Under the pieces are notes generated by a model. It made no database searches, was not told where the DNA came from, and was given only the letters and a program-made list of their open reading frames with translations. Of a DNA stretch of 64,000 bases, positions 47,442-64,000 are shown one piece after another. The stretch is from an uncultured Aquimarina sp. (GTDB lineage: Bacteria > Bacteroidota > Bacteroidia > Flavobacteriales > Flavobacteriaceae): contig CANMLG010000024.1 of NCBI GenBank assembly GCA_947498765.1, positions 124,001-188,000 on the forward strand, written 5' to 3'. The translations under genes and the position numbers were made by a program. Within the stretch, counting starts at the first letter, position 1. Every line of letters starts with the position of its first letter.

Positions 47442-47458
47442 ATCGTTTTATAAACAAA

Positions 47459-47620
47459 AGGCAGGTCTCCTGGCTTATGTATTGTAATTTGTCTTCCCAC
47501 ATAAAAATGCAGTGACTTACTGTAGTAGTAATTACAACCATCCAAAAAATGGACTAAACTTACAGTTGCGGGAACAGCTCAGGCATTTAATAGTATCTAT
47601 TAGCACCTGCTTCCCTTTTA
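47459..47620 (-). ncRNA. Cobalamin riboswitch
   Basis: Read on the minus strand, the element has the full set of conserved blocks in order: AAAAGGGAAGCAGGTG, ATGCCTGAGCTGTTCCCGC followed by AACTGTAAG, GTCACTG, GGGAAGAC, and the B12 box AAGCCAGGAGACCTGCC. It lies about 45 bp upstream of btuB and should reduce expression when adenosylcobalamin or related corrinoids bind. The remaining parts of the 406-bp gap hold its promoter and an AT-rich leader of the divergent hydroxylase gene. Confidence 0.95.
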
Positions 47621-47663
47621 ATTATTAAAACTTGAATAGCTTTAACAAACCTTAAATTCGCTG

Positions 47664-47671
47664 CAAAAGTA
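47664..47671 (-). promoter_or_regulatory. -7 promoter element of the riboswitch-btuB transcript
   Basis: On the minus strand TACTTTTG matches TAnnTTTG exactly and lies about 45 bp upstream of the first conserved riboswitch block, a suitable place for the start of the transcript. Confidence 0.45.
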
Positions 47672-54652: not shown

Positions 54653-55408
54653 TTATAATCTTACTGGAATTCCTTCATTTTTAAGCTTTTCCTTTAGCTC
54701 TGGAATACCTATTTCTTTAAAGTGAAATACACTTGCTGCCAAAGCTGCATCTGCTTTACCTTCTTTAAAAGTATCTACAAAATGTTGCATATTTCCTGCA
54801 CCACCCGAAGCAATAATCGGAATATTAAGTTCGGTACTTAAACGTGCTAAAGCTTTATTAGCAAAACCATCTTTAGTTCCATCATTATCCATAGAGGTAA
54901 ATAAGATTTCACCCGCACCACGTTGTTCCACCTCTTTTGCCCAATCGAACAAGTTAAGTTCGGTAGGGACTTTACCGCCAACCAAATGCACTATCCACTC
55001 CCCATCAATCTGTTTGGCATCAATAGCTACAGTTATACATTGACTACCAAATTTACTTGATAGTTCATTGATTAACTCAGGGCGTTTTACAGCTGAAGAA
55101 TTCACGGAAACTTTATCTGCTCCATTTTGTAATAAAATATCCACATCTTCCACCGATGAAATTCCTCCACCCACAGTAAAAGGTATATTTACTTCTTTGG
55201 CCACATTTCTGACCAAATCAGCTAAGGTTTTTCGACGTTCTTCCGTAGCTGATATATCCAAAAAAACGAGTTCATCTGCTCCAGTTTTTGCATAAATTGC
55301 AGCTAATTCTACAGGATCTCCTGCATCACGTAAATCAACAAAGTTTACTCCCTTTACAGTGCGCCCATTTTTAATATCTAAACAAGGTACAATTCGTTTT
55401 GTAAGCAT
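54653..55408 (-). CDS. hisF: Imidazole glycerol phosphate synthase cyclase subunit
   Basis: The 251-aa TIM barrel begins [23 protein letters not shown], with the catalytic Asp11, and has the second catalytic Asp in [10 protein letters not shown] plus the phosphate loops VGGGISS and IIASGGAGN. With HisH it makes IGP and AICAR from PRFAR. It is the last his gene visible in the operon; hisIE, which usually follows in this family, is not here. Confidence 0.97.
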
Positions 55409-55415
55409 TTTTTTT

Positions 55416-55451
55416 AGTATTAAGTACTAGAGTACAAAGTACAAAGTACTG
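55416..55451. repeat. Heptamer array in the hisA-hisF spacer
   Basis: The spacer reads as AGTATTA, AGTACTAG, AGTACAA, AGTACAA, AGTACTG, five units of seven (one of eight) bases. It belongs with the AGATNNN-type arrays in other his spacers. Confidence 0.6.
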
Positions 55452-55514
55452 TTTTCTTAATCATATTTTTAATGTTGAGTATATAGAATAAAGTCTAATT
55501 CTCAATATGCAATA

Positions 55515-56243
55515 CTAATTATTTTGTACTATATAATCTTCTAACTGTTTTAAACTTATTCTATTTTCGTAAATCGCTTTACCTATTATGGTTCCTTCAC
55601 AACCGATTTCGGCTAATTTTGGAAGTTCATCAAAAGTTGAAATACCTCCTGAGGCTATTAGTTTAATGTTAGGAATTTCATTCAGCATTTTTTTATACAA
55701 ATTAAATGAAGGCCCTTGTAACATTCCATCTTTACTAATATCAGTACAAATTACATAACTTACCCCTTCTTTTTCGTAACCCTTTACAAATGGTATAAGT
55801 TCTTGATCACTTTCCTCTAACCAACCACTAACGGCTATTTTTTCATTATTAGCATCTGCTCCTAAAATAATTTTATTCGCTCCAAATTTAGTTAACCAAC
55901 TACGAAACACATCGGCATTTTTAACAGCTATACTCCCACCAGTAATTTGATTGGCACCACTTTCAAAAGCTATGCGCAGATCTTCATCGGTTTTTAAGCC
56001 TCCTCCAAAGTCAATTTTTAAATTGGTTTGAGTGGCAATGGTTTCCAATACTTTATGATTTACTATATGACTTGCCTTAGCCCCATCTAAATCCACTAAA
56101 TGCAAATGCTGGATTCCATGAGCTTCAAACTGCTTGGCTATTTCTAAAGGATTTTCATTATACACCTTTTTTGTATTGTAATCTCCTTTTGATAATCGAA
56201 CACATTGTCCGTCTATAATATCTATTGCTGGTATTATTCTCAT
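55515..56243 (-). CDS. hisA: ProFAR isomerase
   Basis: The 242-aa TIM barrel begins [22 protein letters not shown], with catalytic Asp8, and has [23 protein letters not shown], the second catalytic region [12 protein letters not shown] and IASGGIST. It isomerises ProFAR to PRFAR. Full family length. It is preceded by a heptamer array and by a gene for a four-helix-bundle protein. Confidence 0.97.
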
Positions 56244-56277
56244 ACTGATTTTAGATTTTTGAAGTTAGAAACTAGAT
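56243..56277. repeat. Heptamer array in the spacer before hisA
   Basis: Units are TACTGAT, TTTAGAT, TTTTGAA, GTTAGAA, ACTAGAT on the plus strand: five consecutive heptamers sharing a TNGA core at fixed positions. Confidence 0.5.
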
Positions 56278-56293
56278 ATTCTATAACTAAATA

Positions 56294-56653
56294 TTATTTT
56301 TTTCTAGCCGTATTAATTGAAGAAACCACAATGGATAAAATTTCATTGGCTTCTTTATAGAGCTTATCTAATTCACTTTTATAATCTTCACTTAAAATTT
56401 CTATTAACAATTCAATAAAATAAATACTTTCGTCCGTTTCTTCTTCGACAATCTTTAATTTATTGATGAAATCTGCCCTTGATTTTGCTCTTTGAGATGC
56501 TCGATAATTTGCTCCTACAGAACTGGAACACCTAATTAATTGTCTTACATAAGCATTAAAACCTCTATTATTTGGCATTTTATTACAAAGAAACCAACAA
56601 TCAATAGCAAATTGCTTCGTCCTACTCTTCATGATATCTGAAAACGATTCCAT
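56294..56653 (-). CDS. Four-helix-bundle protein of the 23S rRNA IVS (S23) family
   Basis: The 119-aa all-helical protein has the family landmarks: KSRTKQFAIDCWFLCNKMP, LIRCSSSVGANYRASQRAKSRADFINKLKIVEEETDESIYFIELL. Such proteins were first seen encoded in intervening sequences of 23S rRNA and are homologous to the accessory Avd protein of diversity-generating retroelements. No retroelement, variable repeat or rRNA is nearby here. It sits between hisH and hisA in the same direction with short spacers, so it is transcribed with the operon. Function is unknown. Confidence 0.88.
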   Translation of the reverse strand: MESFSDIMKSRTKQFAIDCWFLCNKMPNNRGFNAYVRQLIRCSSSVGANYRASQRAKSRADFINKLKIVEEETDESIYFIELLIEILSEDYKSELDKLYKEANEILSIVVSSINTARKK

Positions 56654-56666
56654 TTATTTCGTATTT

Positions 56667-57260
56667 CTAACTTAGTAAATCTAACTTCAGGAAATTCGAT
56701 AGAATTTTTTCTCCAACATCACTACTTTTTTCTGGATGAAATTGGGTTCCGTAAAAATTATTTTTCTGTAATGCGGTACTGTAATTCACTCCGTAATCGG
56801 TAACACAAATAGTTTCATTACAAACAGGCGCATAAAAACTATGCACCAAATAGATGTATGATTCGTTTGTTACTCCTTCAAATAAATGCGATTTAAAATC
56901 TCTGATTTGATTCCATCCAATTTGTGGCACTTTTACCTCATTAGTAAAACGGACTACATCCACATCAAAAATACCCAAACCTTTGGTATCTCCTTCTTCT
57001 GTTGAATTACACATTAACTGCATTCCTAAACAAATTCCCAACACAGGCTGTTTTAGCGTAGGCACTAATTTATCTAATCCGCTTTCACGAAGCTTATTCA
57101 TAGCACTACTCGCCTCACCAACACCTGGGAAAATTACTTTATCTGCATTTTTAATTTCGTCAACATTATCACTCAACACAGCTTGGTATCCCAAACGCTC
57201 AATAGCAAATTTGATACTCTGAATATTTCCTGCTCCGTAGTTTATTATTACTATTTTCAT
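56667..57260 (-). CDS. hisH: Imidazole glycerol phosphate synthase glutaminase subunit
   Basis: The 197-aa class I glutamine amidotransferase has NYGAGNIQSIKFA, the nucleophile Cys77 in GICLGMQ, and the His175/Glu177 pair in FHPEKSSD. It supplies ammonia to HisF. Complete and in the expected order after hisB. Confidence 0.97.
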   Translation of the reverse strand: MKIVIINYGAGNIQSIKFAIERLGYQAVLSDNVDEIKNADKVIFPGVGEASSAMNKLRESGLDKLVPTLKQPVLGICLGMQLMCNSTEEGDTKGLGIFDVDVVRFTNEVKVPQIGWNQIRDFKSHLFEGVTNESYIYLVHSFYAPVCNETICVTDYGVNYSTALQKNNFYGTQFHPEKSSDVGEKILSNFLKLDLLS

Positions 57261-57267
57261 TAAATAT

Positions 57268-57330
57268 AGATATGAGATTTAAGATACAAGAATTGAGAAA
57301 ATCTAACTTCTAAATTCTTACATCTAACTA
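57268..57330. repeat. Two facing heptamer arrays in the hisB-hisH spacer
   Basis: The first block reads AGATATG, AGATTTA, AGATACA, AGAATTG, AGA (57268-57298). The second reads ATCTAAC, TTCTAAA, TTCTTAC, ATCTAAC (57301-57328), which has the same core on the other strand. Together they fill the whole spacer. Confidence 0.65.
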
Positions 57331-58470
57331 CTACAACATTCCCTTTGTACTTGGTAAAAACATTTTATTGGCGTCACGTTTTACGGCCATTTTCATTGCT
57401 TTTGCAAAGGCTTTAAAAATACCTTCTATTTTATGATGCTCATTATCTCCTTCTGCTTTTATATTTAAATTACATTTAGCCCCATCTGTAAATGATTTAA
57501 ATAAATGTAAAAACATTTCGGTAGGCATATCCCCAATTTTTTCGCGTTTAAAATCGGCATCCCAAACTAACCATGGACGTCCTCCAAAATCAACTGCAGC
57601 TTGCGCCAAACAATCGTCCATTGGTAAACAGAAACCATAACGTTCAATACCCAACTTATTTCCTAGTGCTTTATGAAACAACTCCCCTAAAGCAATCATG
57701 GTATCTTCAATCGTATGATGCTCATCAACATGCAAATCACCATCCACTTTTACGGTTAAATCCATAGCACCGTGTCTCCCAATTTGATCTAACATATGAT
57801 CAAAAAAGTCCAAACCTGTAGCAATATCATTTTTACCAGAACCATCTAAATTTAGCTTGATATAAATTTTAGTCTCATTAGTATTACGAGTAATTTCAGC
57901 TACTCGGTCTTCTAATTTCAAAAACTCATAAATTTCCTTCCAGTCTGTTGAAGTCAGCGCAATACAAGCTGTAATTGCTTTTTCATCACTTTCAATTTCA
58001 TCGGCTCCCAATTCAGGATCTTCGGACAAATAGATGCCTTTGGCTCCTAAATTTTTAGCCAATTCCATATCTGTAATACGATCACCCAATACAAATGAGT
58101 TGGCTAAATCATACTTTTCCGTATCAAAATATTGCGTTAACAAGCCTGTCCTTGGCTTACGCGTTTCGGCATTTTCGTGCGGAAATGTTTTATCTATATG
58201 TATTTCCGAAAATACCACTCCTTCTTTTTCAAAAGCGGATACTATTTTATTTTGGGCAGGCCAAAACGTATCTTCAGGAAACGAATCCGTTCCTAGCCCA
58301 TCCTGATTAGTTACCATTACCAATTCATAATCCAACTCATTTGCTATTTTAGCCATGTATTGAAACACCTTTGGGTAAAATTCCAATTTTTCTAAACTAT
58401 CCAATTGGTAATCCACTGGTGGTTCAAGCACCAAAGTACCGTCTCTATCTATAAATAATACTTTTTTCAT
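57331..58470 (-). CDS. hisB: Bifunctional histidinol-phosphatase / imidazoleglycerol-phosphate dehydratase
   Basis: The 379-aa protein joins a HAD phosphatase (Asp8 and Asp10 in [23 protein letters not shown]) to an IGP dehydratase (from about residue 190) with the metal-binding repeats [15 protein letters not shown] and [17 protein letters not shown]. The fused arrangement as in enterobacteria is standard for Bacteroidetes. Confidence 0.97.
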
Positions 58471-58546
58471 ATTTATTTCGCTTTTCGATATGGCTTTAGG
58501 CTAAAAGCTACTGGCCATTAGCTTGTTTCTATTTTTTATTCTTTTT

Positions 58547-58633
58547 GGGCGTATCCCTACGGGTCAGGCTTTCGCTACTACGCCTCGTTCCTCCTTGGGT
58601 CGGACTGCGGGGTAACCGCTCTATCCTTTACGC
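58547..58633 (-). repeat. GC-rich structured intergenic element
   Basis: This block of 87 bp stands out by its GC content. Read on the minus strand it starts GCGTA and ends TACGCCC, so the ends pair. Inside are GCGG/CCGC and CCC-GTA-GGG hairpins and a second copy of the left end (GGCGTA) that could pair with the same right end (TACGCC). It resembles the GCGTTAGGGATT...ACGCCC family of intergenic repeats that I remember from flavobacterial genomes. Next to it (58506-58524) is a short AGCTA/TAGCT palindrome. Identity as a named repeat is from memory. Confidence 0.6.
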
Positions 58634-58664
58634 ATTATTTTACACACTTTAATTCAACACAAAA

Positions 58665-59258
58665 TTAAAGTTTAATTTTGGTATCATTAGTATAATCAAA
58701 CTGCTTTAAAGTTGACAAATAGTTACTTATTTTTTCTTCCCAAACTGTCAGTTGTTCTTTATCACTACCATCTTTGGTTTCTTGCACTAATAAGGCTCTT
58801 TCTTCAGAAAAATCAGCTATCATTTTATTATTTAATTCTTTAACAAAATCTAACCCCTTCAATAACTTCTTTTTATTTAAAAAAAGTTGTTTTCTAAATC
58901 TTCGGGCATATACTTCGCATAAATCAAATTGTAACTGCTGATAGGCAATGGAGGCACCTATGCTCGAAACTCTAGTAGTATCCACCCAAGAAGCTTTTCC
59001 TACAAAAATATTTTCTATCTTCTTATTCAAGTTTTTCTTTATAAAATCAAAACCCATTACTTGATGCGTAATTAAAAACTGACTATAAATTAATTCATTT
59101 GTATTTACACCTATTTCAATTTTATAATCATCCGCATTCAATTTATTTGTAGCGCTCCATCTTTTTTGTCCTAGTGGTAAAGACTGCGCTTGTAAATTTG
59201 AAAAAAATAAACTTACTGTTAAAACAAATAATAAAACACTACTTTTCATTCTTAACAC
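58665..59258 (-). CDS. Exported protein of unknown function within the his operon
   Basis: The 197-aa protein has a signal peptide (cut near LQAQ, residue 25; MKSSVLLF at residue 4 is an alternative start). The mature part is mostly helical: KLNADDYKIEIGVNTNELIYSQFLITHQVMGFDFIKKNL, then YQQLQFDLCEVYARRFRKQLFLNKKKLLKG. I know no function; similar small exported proteins occur in Flavobacteriaceae. It lies 17 bp after hisC and is followed by the GC-rich element and then hisB, so it is embedded in the operon. Confidence 0.6.
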   Translation of the reverse strand: MLRMKSSVLLFVLTVSLFFSNLQAQSLPLGQKRWSATNKLNADDYKIEIGVNTNELIYSQFLITHQVMGFDFIKKNLNKKIENIFVGKASWVDTTRVSSIGASIAYQQLQFDLCEVYARRFRKQLFLNKKKLLKGLDFVKELNNKMIADFSEERALLVQETKDGSDKEQLTVWEEKISNYLSTLKQFDYTNDTKIKL

Positions 59259-59275
59259 TATTTTTAACTTGTTAA

Positions 59276-60319
59276 TTATAATGATTTCAAGGCTGCTATT
59301 AACAACTTATTTTCTTCGGGTGTACCTACAGTAAATCGTAAGGTATTTTCACATAATGCTTGTGTGGTTCTATTTCTTATAACAATACCTTTGGCTAATA
59401 ATTCATTATAGCGTTTAGTGGCATCATCCACCTTTGCTAACACAAAATTAGCCTCAGTTGGATAAATAGTATCAACAAAATCCACATTTTGTAAGGCTTC
59501 TATTAACCGCTTTCTTTCTTCAAGAATCGCTTTGATTTCATTTTCAACCCCTTTTTTATCTATTAAACGCTCCATGGCTGCTTTTTGAGTCAGCTCATTT
59601 ACATTGTATGGGGGTTTTATCTTGTTGAGTACCGCTATTATTTCTGCAGCAGCAAAACATACACCTAAACGAATACCCGCTAAACCATAAGCTTTAGAAA
59701 GGGTCTGTGTTACAATTAAATTAGTATAATTGGACAATTCATTAACCCAAGTTGATTGATCGGCAAAATCGATATAAGCTTCATCAATCACCACTATACC
59801 TTGAAAGGCTTCTAATAATTGCTTTACCTTTTTTATGGCTATTAAATTACCTGTGGGGTTATTAGGCGAACAAATAAATAGTAATTTTGAATTGGTATCT
59901 ACGGCTTTCAAAATAGCATCAACATCTGGCTGAAAATCGGCTTGCAATACTATTTTACGCTCCTCAATTTCATTTAAATTTGACAATACCGTATACATCC
60001 CATAAGTAGGTGGCAACGTAATAATATTATCTTGTTTAGGTTGGCAAAAAGCTCTGAATAGTAAATCAAGTACCTCATCACTCCCATTTCCTAATAAGAT
60101 ATGGGATTCATCAATTCCTTTTTGTGCAGCTATAATTGATTTTAAACTACGCTGTTGTGGGTCTGGATATCTATTTACTCCATTTTCGAAAGGGTTTTCA
60201 TTGGCATCTAAAAACACCATTTCGGATCCATCGGAAACATATTCATCTCTAGCAGAACTGTAAGGTTTCATTGCCTTAACATTCTCTCTAACCAAATTAT
60301 TTAAATTGAATTTTGTCAT
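59276..60319 (-). CDS. hisC: Histidinol-phosphate aminotransferase
   Basis: The 347-aa fold-type I PLP enzyme has LDANENPF, LGNGSDEVLDLLFRAF, CSPNNPTGN, DEAYIDF and the PLP lysine Lys209 in TQTLSKAYGLAGIRLG. It converts imidazole-acetol phosphate to histidinol phosphate. It is placed after a ChaN-like gene in the operon. Confidence 0.97.
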   Translation of the reverse strand: MTKFNLNNLVRENVKAMKPYSSARDEYVSDGSEMVFLDANENPFENGVNRYPDPQQRSLKSIIAAQKGIDESHILLGNGSDEVLDLLFRAFCQPKQDNIITLPPTYGMYTVLSNLNEIEERKIVLQADFQPDVDAILKAVDTNSKLLFICSPNNPTGNLIAIKKVKQLLEAFQGIVVIDEAYIDFADQSTWVNELSNYTNLIVTQTLSKAYGLAGIRLGVCFAAAEIIAVLNKIKPPYNVNELTQKAAMERLIDKKGVENEIKAILEERKRLIEALQNVDFVDTIYPTEANFVLAKVDDATKRYNELLAKGIVIRNRTTQALCENTLRFTVGTPEENKLLIAALKSL

Positions 60320-60362
60320 TTTAAGTAGTAAATAAATCTTGATTATTTATTTTTATATCCCT

Positions 60363-61214
60363 TTAATAGGTTTTAGTCATGGTATCAGGAATACAAATAA
60401 TGTAATCTGCCTTATTCTTATTTTCTTCTAACAATTCTGATACATTTTTTTGTTCTACCGTGGATACGGTTACATAATTTAAATTGCTATTCCGTTGTTT
60501 TAAAAACCAAAGAATACCCTCATAACTATCAGAATGGTATGCTCCATTAATATGAAAAAACAGTTTATTCTGCTCATAATTTTCCAAAATAAAATGTGCC
60601 ATAGTTGCATCTTTTATGGCTTGTGCTTTTACTAATTCTGGTGTGCCATGATCCTCAAACATGGTTAGTATTTTTTTATACGTAGGTAAATCTGGATCAA
60701 ACTTAATAGGCAAAGGTGCTATAAAACGTTTTTCGTCAGGTACTAAATGTTCTAATATCCTAAAACCTTCTTTATGTACCAAGCTAGCATATTGTCTAGG
60801 TACGTTTGTGGCAATAAATGAAATCTTTTTACTTTTAGAATAGTCTACGATAGGTTTGTAATCTGTCTTATAATTTGACCACAATTCTACTTGTGTTTTT
60901 AGAGTCTCTTCATCAATACTATTTGATAAATAATTATTAAGCGCCGCTTGTCCATCACTTTCAAAAAACTCTGCTCCTAAAATTAATGCTCGTTGTTTAC
61001 TTAAATCACGTATTAATTCTAACTCCAACCAATGTGCAATAGGATTATTATGAAGTTCGCCAAAAAGAAGAATATCATTTTTTGATAATCCTCCTAGCAT
61101 TTTTTCATATTTTACTACTTTACCTTTAGCATTATAGATTATATACGCTGCTTTTTGTCCGAATACAGACAATGTTGTTAAAGATAATATGACATACGTA
61201 ACTAATAGCTTCAT
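60363..61214 (-). CDS. ChaN-like exported protein
   Basis: The 283-aa protein has a signal peptide (cut near VFGQ, residue 20) and the ChaN/Tiki-like core: DILLFGELHNNPIAHWLELELIRDLS, LGAEFFE, ATNVPRQYASLVHKEG, KAQAIKDATMAHFILEN and NGAYHSD. ChaN proteins bind heme dimers or act as EreA/ChaN-superfamily hydrolases; the GExHxxxxH motif (GELHNNPIAH) is intact. Its place between hisD and hisC has no obvious metabolic reason. Confidence 0.82.
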   Translation of the reverse strand: MKLLVTYVILSLTTLSVFGQKAAYIIYNAKGKVVKYEKMLGGLSKNDILLFGELHNNPIAHWLELELIRDLSKQRALILGAEFFESDGQAALNNYLSNSIDEETLKTQVELWSNYKTDYKPIVDYSKSKKISFIATNVPRQYASLVHKEGFRILEHLVPDEKRFIAPLPIKFDPDLPTYKKILTMFEDHGTPELVKAQAIKDATMAHFILENYEQNKLFFHINGAYHSDSYEGILWFLKQRNSNLNYVTVSTVEQKNVSELLEENKNKADYIICIPDTMTKTY

Positions 61215-61255
61215 AATAAAGTTGCTTTGAAATGTTTTTAATACTAAAAGAATAC

Positions 61256-62536
61256 CTATTCTTCGTTTAATCGAAGCCTTACTGCATTTTTATGCGCTTG
61301 TAAACCTTCGGCCTCAGCCATAAGTTCTATGGCATTCCCTATAGCATGTATTCCTTTTTTGGTTATCTTTTGAAATGTCATACTTTTCATAAACGTATCC
61401 AAATTGACACCACTATAATTTTTAGCATATCCATTAGTAGGCAAGGTATGATTTGTTCCCGAGGCATAATCTCCTGCACTTTCGGGGGTATAATTACCTA
61501 TAAATACCGAACCTGCATTGGCTATACGATTCACATAAAAATCTTCATTTTTTACACAAATAATAAAGTGCTCCGGACCGTATTCATTAATTAAATCCAA
61601 GGCAATTTGATCATTTTCTACATAAATCAGCTTGGAGTTTTTTATAGCTTTGGTGGCAATTTCAACGCGTGGTAATACGGCTAATTGTTTTTCCACTTCA
61701 ATTTCAACCTCATCCATTAGTTTTTTGGAAGTGGATACCAAAATTACTTGACTATCTTTCCCATGTTCTGCCTGACTTAATAAATCTGAAGCCACATAAG
61801 CAGCATTAGCACTATCATCGGCCACTACCAATAATTCACTAGGTCCAGCGGGCATATCAATAGCTACACCGTGTTTTGTAGCTAATTGTTTTGCTACCGT
61901 TACAAATTGATTTCCGGGACCAAATATTTTATACACTTGTGGTATAGATTGGGTTCCGAAGGTCATCCCCGCGATGGCTTGGATTCCTCCTACTTTACAA
62001 ATTTTAGTAACACCACATAATTGCGCTGTGTACAAAATAGCTGGATGAATTTTACCCTCACTATTAGGGGGTGAACACAATACAATTTCTTCACAACCGG
62101 CTATTTTAGCTGGTAATACTAACATCAAAATAGTTGAAAACAAAGGTGCTGTTCCCCCTGGGATATATAAACCTACTTTTTGAATAGGACGTTTTTCCTG
62201 CCAACAATCCACACCAGTCATGGTTGTTACTTGTACTCGTGTTGTTTTTTGTGCTTCGTGAAAACGAGTTACGTTTCCTTTTGCTAACTGAATAGCTTCT
62301 TTCAGCTCTTTTGTTATCAATCCTTCTGCTTCCGTAATTTCTTCGGCAGTGACTAGCATATTAGTTAACTGAACGCTATCAAATTTTTGAGTATACGTAG
62401 CTACAGCTTTATCACCATTCAAACGTACATTATTAAAAACCTCTGCTACTGTGCCTTCAATATCAGCTACAGTTTGCGTAGGTCTTTTTAAAATTTGTTC
62501 CCAATCTGCTTGAGATGGATTGTATATTTTATTCAT
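61256..62536 (-). CDS. hisD: Histidinol dehydrogenase
   Basis: The 426-aa zinc enzyme has KRPIQKVGLYIPGGTAPLFSTILMLVLPAKIAGC, CKVGGIQAIAGMTFGT, GPGNQFVTVAKQL, DMPAGPSELLVVAD and the metal/catalytic SQAEHGKDSQ and EHFIIC. It carries out the last two oxidations to histidine. It is the second gene of the operon. Confidence 0.97.
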   Translation of the reverse strand: MNKIYNPSQADWEQILKRPTQTVADIEGTVAEVFNNVRLNGDKAVATYTQKFDSVQLTNMLVTAEEITEAEGLITKELKEAIQLAKGNVTRFHEAQKTTRVQVTTMTGVDCWQEKRPIQKVGLYIPGGTAPLFSTILMLVLPAKIAGCEEIVLCSPPNSEGKIHPAILYTAQLCGVTKICKVGGIQAIAGMTFGTQSIPQVYKIFGPGNQFVTVAKQLATKHGVAIDMPAGPSELLVVADDSANAAYVASDLLSQAEHGKDSQVILVSTSKKLMDEVEIEVEKQLAVLPRVEIATKAIKNSKLIYVENDQIALDLINEYGPEHFIICVKNEDFYVNRIANAGSVFIGNYTPESAGDYASGTNHTLPTNGYAKNYSGVNLDTFMKSMTFQKITKKGIHAIGNAIELMAEAEGLQAHKNAVRLRLNEE

Positions 62537-62626: not shown

Positions 62627-63484
62627 TTAAAGCACCATTTTTTCAATTGGACAAACCAAAATACCTTCGGCTCCAGCTATTTTTAATTCGTCAATAACTT
62701 CCCAAAATTTATTTTTCTGAATTACCGTATGTATACTACTCCAACCTTCTTCCGCCAAGGGCAAAATAGTTGGACTACGCATGCCTGGTAACAGCTTCAG
62801 TATTTCGTCTAGCTTATCATTAGGTGCATTTAGCAATACATATTTTGAATTACGTGCCTTTAAAACAGACTGAATTCGGAACTGTAACTTGCTTAAAAGT
62901 GCTTTAGCTTCTTCAGATATTTTTGGCGATACTGCCAAAACAGCTTCCGAAGTTAACATAACTTCCACCTCCTTCAGATTGTTTTTAAACAAGGTACTTC
63001 CGCTAGAAACGATGTCGCAAATAGCATCGGCCAAACCAATATTTGGTGCAATTTCTACAGATCCCGAAATTTGATGAATTTCATAATTAATCCCCTTGTC
63101 GGCTAAATACTGATCAACGGTATTAGGATATGACGTGGCAATTTTTTTACCATCTAAATCCTTGATAGAAGTGTACTCCGCTCCTTTTGGTACCGCTAAA
63201 GAAACCTTGCATTTAGAAAAATTTAAACGCTCGGCGATCGAAATATCTTGACCTTTTTCAATCAATACATTTTCGCCAATTATAGCAATATCCACAACAC
63301 CATCACGTAAATATTGAGGGATATCCCCATTACGTAAAAACATTACTTCCATTGGGAAATTTCGCGTTGCTGCTTTTAATTGGTCTTTACCATTGTCAAT
63401 AGAAATTCCGCAATCCTTAAGTATTGCTACAGAATCTTCATTAAGTCGACCACTCTTTTGAATAGCTATTCTAATTTTTGTCAT
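62627..63484 (-). CDS. hisG: ATP phosphoribosyltransferase (long form)
   Basis: The 285-aa protein begins MTKIRIAIQKSGRLNEDS and has the catalytic domains with NGDIPQYLRDGVVDIAIIGENV and the PRPP loop IVSSGSTLF. It also has the C-terminal regulatory HisG_C domain (about 210-285, ending AGAEGILVCPIEKMVL), so it should be inhibited by histidine and not need HisZ. It is the first structural gene, 24 nt after the leader terminator. Confidence 0.97.
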   Translation of the reverse strand: MTKIRIAIQKSGRLNEDSVAILKDCGISIDNGKDQLKAATRNFPMEVMFLRNGDIPQYLRDGVVDIAIIGENVLIEKGQDISIAERLNFSKCKVSLAVPKGAEYTSIKDLDGKKIATSYPNTVDQYLADKGINYEIHQISGSVEIAPNIGLADAICDIVSSGSTLFKNNLKEVEVMLTSEAVLAVSPKISEEAKALLSKLQFRIQSVLKARNSKYVLLNAPNDKLDEILKLLPGMRSPTILPLAEEGWSSIHTVIQKNKFWEVIDELKIAGAEGILVCPIEKMVL

Positions 63485-63507
63485 AACAATTGTTATTGTA
63501 TCAATTT

Positions 63508-63548
63508 AAAAAATTAAACCCGTTTGAGGTAAACTCAAACGGGTTTAA
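63508..63548 (-). terminator. Attenuator terminator upstream of hisG
   Basis: TTAAACCCGTTTGAG and CTCAAACGGGTTTAA pair perfectly over 15 bp with a 5-nt loop (63514-63548). On the minus strand six U follow at once (63513-63508). It lies between the leader peptide and hisG, so transcription would stop before the operon unless the hairpin is prevented. Confidence 0.88.
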
Positions 63549-63575
63549 AATATGCTTACATGTTTACATACCAAA

Positions 63576-63632
63576 CTACCCCGCTTGAGCGATTAAGTAG
63601 TAATGATGGGGATGTGCACATGAATAATTCAT
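63576..63632 (-). CDS. hisL: His operon leader peptide
   Basis: ATG at 63632 opens an 18-codon frame, MNYSCAHPHHYYLIAQAG, ending in TAG at 63576. Histidine codons are at positions 7, 9 and 10, far above chance for such a short frame. Codons 15-18 contain CTCAAGCGGG (63589-63580), which can pair over 10 bp (one G-U) with CCCGTTTGAG in the 5' arm of the terminator. The frame is too short for ordinary gene finding. There is no Shine-Dalgarno sequence, but an A-rich stretch precedes the ATG, as in other Bacteroidetes genes. Translation is inferred. Confidence 0.82.
   Translation of the reverse strand: MNYSCAHPHHYYLIAQAG
63580..63589 (-). promoter_or_regulatory. Antiterminator segment of the his leader
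   Basis: CTCAAGCGGG on the minus strand nearly duplicates the terminator 3' arm CTCAAACGGG and is complementary to the 5' arm. It starts 13 nt after the last His codon, so a ribosome waiting at His9 or His10 would leave it free, whereas one at the stop codon would cover it. Confidence 0.75.
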
Positions 63633-63654
63633 TTTCTAATTTTATCTGATTTGG

Positions 63655-63705
63655 ACTTACTTGTAAGTACGCAGCAAAATAAATAAATTATTAAACCATT
63701 TTCAA
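63655..63705 (-). promoter_or_regulatory. Candidate promoter and palindrome of the his operon
   Basis: On the minus strand TTG (63705-63703) and TATTTTG (63681-63675) are 21 bp apart, close to the Bacteroidetes -33/-7 pattern, although the -7 element is one base short of TAnnTTTG. Just downstream, around the expected start point, ACTTAC-AA-GTAAGT (63668-63655) is a perfect short palindrome that could be an operator or a 5' hairpin. Confidence 0.35.
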
Positions 63706-63794
63706 CTTATTGAGTACATTTTTTAAGTATAAATCACCTAATTCTATCTATTTCCAGTTTTTGTGCTATTTTAGTCTTTATTATTTTAAATTTT

Positions 63795-64000
63795 ATGAAG
63801 CGATTAGCGCTTAGTTTTTTTGTTTTTTCCATTTGGGCGGTCTTGGCAAGTACCTATTACATATGCATTATTCAAGGTTTATGTACAACTGACACTATTA
63901 CATCCGTTCCTATTGATAAATCAAAAAATAACAATATCAAAGTCAATACCTCTACTTTATTCAGCAAAACTGATACTATTACAAATAAATTTGCAGCAGC
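63795..64000 (+). CDS. OmpA-family-like envelope protein (3' partial)
   Basis: The frame opens with ATG at 63795 and runs off the right edge. The first 68 residues contain a membrane or signal helix (LALSFFVFSIWAVLAST) followed by YYICIIQGLC, which resembles the WYxCxIKGFC segment found after the signal anchor of flavobacterial OmpA-domain proteins, then a Ser/Thr/Asn-rich linker. The peptidoglycan-binding domain would lie outside the window, so the call is tentative. It diverges from the his operon. Confidence 0.5.
   Translation, partial: MKRLALSFFVFSIWAVLASTYYICIIQGLCTTDTITSVPIDKSKNNNIKVNTSTLFSKTDTITNKFAA

Follow-up and report, generated by a model that had tools for sequence, protein, structure and literature searches.

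Conserved Leader Peptide, Terminator, and Alternative Pairings Point to Ribosome-Mediated Attenuation of the his Operon in Flavobacteriaceae and Other Bacteroidia

Upstream of hisG in an uncultured Aquimarina sp. lies an element that, judging from its sequence and its relatives, very likely controls the his operon through ribosome-mediated transcription attenuation. Ribosome-mediated attenuation is favored because the leader, the terminator, and the two alternative pairings are jointly conserved with nearly fixed spacing. The combination of leader and terminator upstream of hisG is not due to chance. The element is encoded on the minus strand of the window, which is the whole analyzed stretch of 64,000 nucleotides.

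Organization of the his Locus

The features are listed below in the order of transcription of the his genes.

63703..63705, minus strand: candidate -33 element of the promoter, TTG, located 21 nt upstream of the -7 box (by eye)
63674..63681, minus strand: candidate -7 box TATTTTGC of the TAnnTTGY type (by eye)
63576..63632, minus strand: hisL-like leader ORF of 18 codons, MNYSCAHPHHYYLIAQAG, with ATG at 63632 and TAG ending at 63576 (direct sequence reading)
63609..63611, minus strand: leader codon 8, CCC (Pro), which is CAC (His) in L001 (sequence reading and His-position count)
63603..63608, minus strand: putative control His codons 9 and 10, CAT CAT (His-position count over distinct leaders)
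63580..63589, minus strand: region 2, the predicted 5' segment of the antiterminator, CTCAAGCGGG, within codons 15-18 (pairing, codon-choice, and cross-family tests)
63549..63572, minus strand: weak hairpin lying inside the antiterminator, between regions 2 and 3 (weak folding signal)
63534..63543, minus strand: region 3, the shared segment CCCGTTTGAG, part of the terminator 5' arm (covariation tests)
63508..63548, minus strand: intrinsic terminator with a perfect 15-bp stem (63548-63534 / 63528-63514), a loop of 5, and six U (63513-63508)
62627..63484, minus strand: hisG, the first gene of the cluster, with ATG at 63484 (Pfam PF01634 and PF08029)
54653..62536, minus strand: remaining his cluster, with hisD, ChaN-like, hisC (aminotransferase), unknown, hisB, hisH, 23S-IVP-like, hisA, and hisF (Pfam)

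The hisF-like ORF, which closes the cluster after hisA, was called by eye from the appearance of its sequence. Three non-his genes lie inside the cluster on the minus strand: a ChaN-like haem-binding protein gene (60363-61214), a gene with no Pfam match (58665-59258), and a gene for a 23S-IVP-like protein (56294-56653). The PRA-CH domain of hisI/hisIE is encoded on another contig (C40). On the far side of the leader, a plausible divergent ORF runs on the plus strand from 63795 onwards. At the gathering threshold, Rfam matches the window only once, with a cobalamin riboswitch at 47443-47669 on the minus strand (RF00174, 88.3 bits).

The original prediction, made from the letters of the window, had described an 18-codon leader with His codons 7, 9, and 10 and a segment inside codons 15-18, followed by a perfect 15-bp hairpin, six U, and hisG. 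All of these can be read directly from the sequence. The terminator folds with z = -5.97, and none of 200 shuffles folds as well. Only one terminator-like site is present in 63400-63800, where 0.1 is expected from shuffles.

Distribution of the Leader and the Terminator

The contigs of named genomes were searched with HisG, and the loci of the best 80 of 561 confirmed matches were all read. Among 299 genomes of the family, 250 matched HisG, and 130 of these, from the higher-scoring part, were read. They consist of 30 loci from the HisG search, including that of the window's own genome, and 100 added loci; some lie on the same contigs as the named loci. The resulting 210 hisG loci (80 and 130) come from Flavobacteriaceae and near MAGs. 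They contain 202 distinct leader-to-hisG sequences, of which 126 were left below 93% similarity. In the class sample, 72 of 159 genomes matched HisG; 69 loci were read, 67 of them outside Flavobacteriaceae.

By a lenient rule, a His leader and a terminator are present in all 210 family loci read. The strict rule demands a leader ORF with at least three clustered His codons and a strong terminator at the right distance. Mononucleotide shuffles served as controls here as well as for the pairing-partner, protector, spacer-hairpin, and promoter-box tests. An alignment of hisG upstream regions within the family had been proposed with the original prediction, and it bears out the conservation of the His codons: under the strict rule, the leader is found in 123 of the 126 non-redundant regions and leader plus terminator in 122. 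The reverse strand gave a leader in 2/126 and both in 0/126, and the shuffles gave 5/630 and 0/630. Outside Flavobacteriaceae, the leader is found in 60 and both in 45 of the 67 Bacteroidia loci, against 7/67 and 0/67 for reversed sequences and 23/670 and 0/670 for shuffles. At least one locus with both is present in 25 of 34 Bacteroidia families, and at least one leader in 30 of 34. When the strict rule was rerun for ten other amino acids, the maximum was for Leu, with 17/67 and 38/126 versus 45 and 122 for His.

An order-wide search with the model R1 matched 65 of 119 genomes at E <= 0.01, a figure that includes many weak matches and is not taken as a count of presence. In the window's own genome, R1 and one pattern yielded the element upstream of hisG as the only his attenuator. 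A second site matched by R1 (39.7 bits, contig C59) looks like an ordinary terminator located behind another gene; the other two R1 matches are opposite-strand echoes of the hisG element and of the C59 site.

Alternative Pairings and Selection on the RNA

The terminator between the leader and the first gene is kept by compensatory change. In the alignment, 97.7% of cells are paired and 7 of 12 pairs have changes on both sides, and none of 500 shuffles reaches the data on any measure. Region 3 in its 5' arm can alternatively pair with region 2. In the window, CTCAAGCGGG pairs with CCCGTTTGAG over 10 bp with one G-U, as originally described; the core that is general in the family is 8 bp long (CTCAAGCG:CGTTTGAG) and nearly invariant. 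The 9th pair is missing in 120 and the 10th is present in 106 of the 126 non-redundant sequences.

For the antiterminator, 85.9% of cells are paired versus 85.1% in shuffles (0/500), double changes occur in 8 cells (1/500), and the covariation score is likewise reached by 1 of 500 shuffles. The number of pairs with a double change (215/500) and that of further pair types (62/500) are within the range of shuffles. Covariation of both stems had been suggested as a check, and the outcome differs between them: the terminator (3:4) exceeds all shuffles, while the 2:3 pairing stands out on three of five measures but not on the other two. Region 2 varies too little within the family, and strong covariation of the 2:3 pairing is therefore lacking.

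Other analyses point to the same pairing. Alifold on columns 50-128 gave the 2:3 pairing at -3.39 versus about 0, with none of 200 column shuffles as good. In a scan starting 40 nt upstream of the leader, the terminator 5' arm has its best partner in region 2 in 117/126. Arms differ between families; GGCTTACC/GGTAAGCC, for instance, occurs with GGTAAGC or GGTAGGCC as region 2. In a cross-family test on 45 loci (22 of the 67 non-family loci were unusable, having no strong terminator or no leader in place), region 2 pairs better with its own terminator than with those of other families (16.85 versus 14.47; 0/5000 permutations). The own score of Flavobacteriaceae is 18.5, versus foreign scores of 12.9 and 13.5 obtained from a sample of 30. 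At single loci, p <= 0.02 was reached in 15 of 49, two of the 49 being from Flavobacteriaceae. Region 2 is weakened without compensation in L148, L157, and L188.

The codons of region 2 are constrained as well. Of the 119 leaders counted (from the 126 non-redundant ones), 118 use GCG for the Ala of this segment, versus 11.9% of 1443 Ala codons in hisG of the named loci. In four of the 202 distinct sequences (L027, L031, L033, and L210), the Gln codon is changed to a stop inside region 2, which leaves a peptide of 14-15 aa while the RNA segment goes on. The near-fixed GCG and the survival of the RNA segment beyond these stop codons indicate that region 2 is conserved at the RNA level.

These results bear on the simplest alternative, that a constitutive terminator happens to lie beside a meaningless short ORF and regulates nothing. 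Terminators are common, and some are near short ORFs by chance; leader and terminator together, however, are found in 122 of 126 regions versus none in the controls, and region 2 is conserved at the RNA level. The nearest ORF on the far side is plausibly divergent, so that the transcript being ended is likely the leader's own. A constitutive terminator is thus almost certainly the wrong explanation. The two pairings of region 3 are better read as mutually exclusive, with region 2, the 5' segment of the antiterminator, left free by a ribosome predicted to stall at the control codons.

The hairpin at 63549..63572, between regions 2 and 3, has a mean p of 0.14, with p <= 0.05 in 28.6% of the 126 sequences, and no alifold consensus in the alignment used. 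It is possibly a stacking or pause element.

Histidine Codons and Their Distance to Region 2

His positions were counted in the 190 of 202 distinct leaders that have a recognizable C-terminus, going back from the place of the region-2 Gln. His occupies place -7 in 190/190, -6 in 188/190, -8 in 183/190, and -9 in 91/190. In the window, whose His codons are 7, 9, and 10, the Pro is at place -8 (codon 8), and codons 9 and 10 are the near-invariant His places. The earlier remark that the leader has only three His codons split by Pro is true of the window, but this is a local variant: codon 8 is His in the great majority of leaders by the count above, and L001, from Aquimarina agarilytica with a 99% identical HisG, has HHHH. 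A further count took the 18-codon leaders in which three or more of codons 7-10 are His. Among these 92, His is missing at codon 8 in five, at codon 7 in two, and at codons 9 and 10 in none. Codons 7 and 8 thus tolerate the loss of His, and it is the two near-invariant codons closest to region 2 that seem to count.

Extremely short leaders with His directly after the start are seen in L213, L257, and L279 of family f15 (MHHHHFCA, MHHHHYFCA, and MHHHHFCA) and in L273 of family f32 (MHQFHHAS). The His leader of L259 is closely preceded by a tRNA gene (RF00005, 75.6 bits), at 234-306 on the minus strand.

The peptide's N-terminal part differs from lineage to lineage, in contrast to the His run and the RNA segment, which are retained. 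This speaks against an action in trans of the peptide or of the short terminated RNA, beside or instead of attenuation in cis, for which trpL of S. meliloti, in the accessible part of its description, offers a precedent (PMC7298713). Such action in trans is quite improbable here, and attenuation in cis is the reading followed below.

Between the last His codon of the run and the CA of region 2 lie 15 nt in 184 of 210 loci; the distance was unmeasurable by the pattern in 16, and 10 have other values, some due to an extra His or an unusual run. The pairing segment itself begins about 13 nt past the last His codon. In other families, 31 of 45 loci pair well, and in 22 of these 31 the segment begins 12-17 nt beyond the last His. 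A ribosome with a codon in its A site covers about 10 nt beyond that codon.

A switch that senses a ligand or a protein (T-box, riboswitch, or RNA-binding protein) could use the same terminator, with the His peptide being secondary, and the alternative pairing alone would fit such a ligand-controlled antiterminator too. However, no Rfam model matches the locus at the gathering threshold, and neither a T-box nor a riboswitch appears there or in 20 other loci even below threshold. The near-fixed distance between the His codons and region 2 is expected with a ribosome and not otherwise. A sensing switch is therefore very hard to credit, and the ribosome remains the preferred sensor.

Folding and Proposed Mechanism

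With folding of the window RNA constrained as in the stalled case, with RNA up to region 3, the antiterminator forms (-22.1); in the stop-codon case, the terminator forms (-20.8). Taken alone, the two structures are close to balanced, at -20.1 for the antiterminator and -20.7 for the terminator. Mean energies over 123 of the 126 sequences are -17.1 and -17.0 kcal/mol, respectively. When no constraint is set, folding of the full-length window RNA gives the terminator (-39.5), and the antiterminator must therefore win by forming first.

The following mechanism is proposed. Transcription would start just upstream of the leader, and a ribosome would load on the leader ATG. When His-tRNA is ample, the ribosome would reach the stop codon and cover region 2; region 3 would then pair with region 4, and the terminator formed in this way would halt RNA polymerase before hisG. 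When charged His-tRNA is scarce, the ribosome would stall on the last His codons, leaving region 2, which begins 13 nt beyond, just free. Region 2 could then pair with the emerging region 3 and block the terminator. The translation of the leader, the ribosome positions, the kinetics, the response to histidine, and the default read-through are what we infer from the conserved features. In the original prediction, the position of the ribosome at the His codons decides which of the two structures forms. Conservation, covariation, codon choice, and spacing give this idea strong support.

Promoter and Start of the Leader

Transcription in the window is predicted to start at about 63669, giving a 5' UTR of about 37 nt, which is a longer form. 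A scan for exact TAnnTTTG detected no box at the window locus; TATTTTGC was assigned by eye. The TTG at 63703..63705 is a candidate chosen by the -33 consensus. At 63668-63655 (minus strand), where the leader RNA is predicted to have its 5' end, there is a small inverted repeat, ACTTA-CAAG-TAAGT, whose counterpart in L001 is ACTTA-TAAA-TAAGT.

In the family, the distance from the end of a TAnnTTT(G/A) box to the leader ATG is 5-12 nt in 66 of 126 non-redundant loci and 13-24 nt in 22; 5 have the box elsewhere within 60 nt, and 33 have none. The box is exactly 7 nt before the ATG in 34 and 8 nt in 20, versus 0.6 expected per position. According to the accessible part of PMC9723704, the promoter box is placed at -12 to -5, the median UTR is 24 nt, and leaderless mRNAs make up 5.5% of mapped cases. 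With the box placed in this way, a distance of 7-8 nt corresponds to a predicted 5' UTR of 3-4 nt. The leader mRNA is thus predicted to be nearly leaderless in 66 of 126 family loci.

Outside the family, 57 loci have 19 boxes at 4-12 nt and 19 at 13-26 nt, with 0.14 expected per position. These distances are rough, as the shortest ATG leader was taken and in L231 and L236, for example, this is plainly not the His leader. A scan for sigma-70 promoters found 4 versus 2.4 expected, which is near chance.

Search for a Protector Stem

The enterobacterial his attenuator has a protector stem (1:2), which gives termination without a ribosome. A classical attenuator of this four-segment type would follow the same stalling logic as the three segments described above. 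Duplex scoring in 116 of the 126 sequences found no upstream partner of region 2 above chance (mean p 0.587; 4.3% at p <= 0.05), although a lineage-specific or gapped stem could be missed in this way, and a good upstream partner is present in L138 and L140. Alifold on columns 1-70 shows no fold, but the shuffled control shows none either (0), which gives this comparison no weight. The probability of the four-segment type is low. The original prediction had called the attenuator complete and classical, which overstates the case: the protector segment was not found in the sequences scored. Since it was not found, a leader without a ribosome should read through by default.

On this basis, a three-segment his attenuator without a protector may be class-wide in Bacteroidia. 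It would read through by default, and in many species the nearly leaderless start would bring the ribosome onto the RNA at its 5' end or close to it, which would keep the first ribosome in step with RNA polymerase despite the absence of Shine-Dalgarno signals. This wider proposal is tentative, its chance of being right falling slightly short of even. If true, the three-segment, nearly leaderless element would be a natural readout of transcription-translation coupling in Bacteroidota.

Rfam His_leader (RF00514) gave no match at the window at the gathering threshold, and none is listed up to E 5. Among 20 other loci, it has sense-strand matches in L211 (33.9 bits) and L245 (32.2 bits), below the gathering value of 49. 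Sub-threshold sense-strand matches to Thr_leader are found in L216, L217, L242, L243, L144, and L266, and the Phe, Trp, and Leu models also have such matches in these 20 related loci. Sub-threshold matches to amino-acid leaders fit the kind of element proposed, not membership in those families.

Other Leaders in the Same Genome

The leader upstream of trpE (L280, contig C16), MKNLNFNIWWWISLVN, contains WWW and is accompanied by a strong GGCTTGTC/GACAAGCC terminator. A promoter box assigned by eye ends 4 nt before the ATG of this leader, so that transcription is predicted to start at the A of the ATG, which would make it leaderless. Upstream of pheA (L282, contig C28), there is a leader MNNLFFYNRFYFFFFFR with FFFFF, plus a terminator. 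By eye, a segment like the terminator 3' arm overlaps the end of this leader. The stretch TTTTGGTATGTAAA at pheA resembles TTTGGTATGTAAA behind the stop codon of the his leader, and it is possibly a shared pause or structural element. In the upstream regions of ilvD and thrA of the same genome, no clear leader was seen by eye. The Trp and Phe leaders suggest a wider strategy.

Discussion

The proposed attenuator would show concretely how a biosynthetic pathway is regulated in a large bacterial group that has been studied less. It would imply that, at least in the his leader, the ribosome of Bacteroidota moves in step with RNA polymerase, and it offers a simple native reporter for transcription-translation coupling and for the charging of His-tRNA.

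A prediction of attenuators by Vitreschak et al. (2004, FEMS) reportedly includes Bacteroidetes/Chlorobi. Because of this prediction and the earlier attenuation clues from Flavobacterium, the existence of such a His leader was half expected beforehand. What the present analysis appears to add is its occurrence across the class, the apparent lack of a protector stem, the fixed geometry of the codons, and the predicted, nearly leaderless start. No description of a His leader of Bacteroidota was found in the open literature, where most subscription papers are missing.

In its accessible part, PMC9723704 reports "strong clues" for attenuation by leader peptides before amino-acid operons of Flavobacterium, and in Flavobacterium psychrophilum a 5' element of hisG, common to other genera of Flavobacteriaceae and without an Rfam hit. 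This is very probably the same element as that described here. The original prediction did not know the leader as a described one in Bacteroidetes; the hisG element and the attenuation clues had in fact been reported, but the His leader is not described in the accessible text. As far as the other sources are accessible, short ORFs reminiscent of leader peptides are mentioned in Bacteroides (PMC7366714), hisG leaders are named in gamma-proteobacteria (PMC4833913), and his RNA attenuators are placed in Proteobacteria (PMC9413887, 2022). In the accessible text of a 2021 paper on his genes in the group (PMC8305728), "leader" does not occur and "attenuat" occurs once, on enterobacteria.

Four known systems can be compared. 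The Bacteroid-trp motif (RF01692; PMC2864571), by its name and accessible description, is likewise a cis-regulatory candidate for an amino-acid operon of Bacteroidetes, but it has no match at the hisG leader locus. The enterobacterial hisL (RF00514), whose anatomy in E. coli is given in the accessible part of PMC3896937, shares a short His-rich leader of 18 residues before the his genes, a terminator, and an alternative pairing. It has seven His in a row, whereas the Bacteroidia element has 3-4 His codons as a rule, places the putative antiterminator segment inside the last codons of the ORF, and has a Bacteroidota promoter and no Shine-Dalgarno signal; it also differs in that no protector stem and no Rfam match at threshold were found. 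The hisG element of F. psychrophilum agrees in gene, family, conservation in Flavobacteriaceae, and attenuation clues, while the His leader, the pairings, and the spread beyond the family do not appear in the accessible description (PMC9723704). The trpL of S. meliloti, according to the accessible part of PMC7298713, also has an amino-acid leader ORF at the 5' end of its RNA (leaderless) and ribosome-dependent attenuation. It concerns Trp and Alphaproteobacteria, whereas in the His element described here a predicted 5' UTR of 3-4 nt is the commonest class and one of about 37 nt is predicted for the strain of the window.
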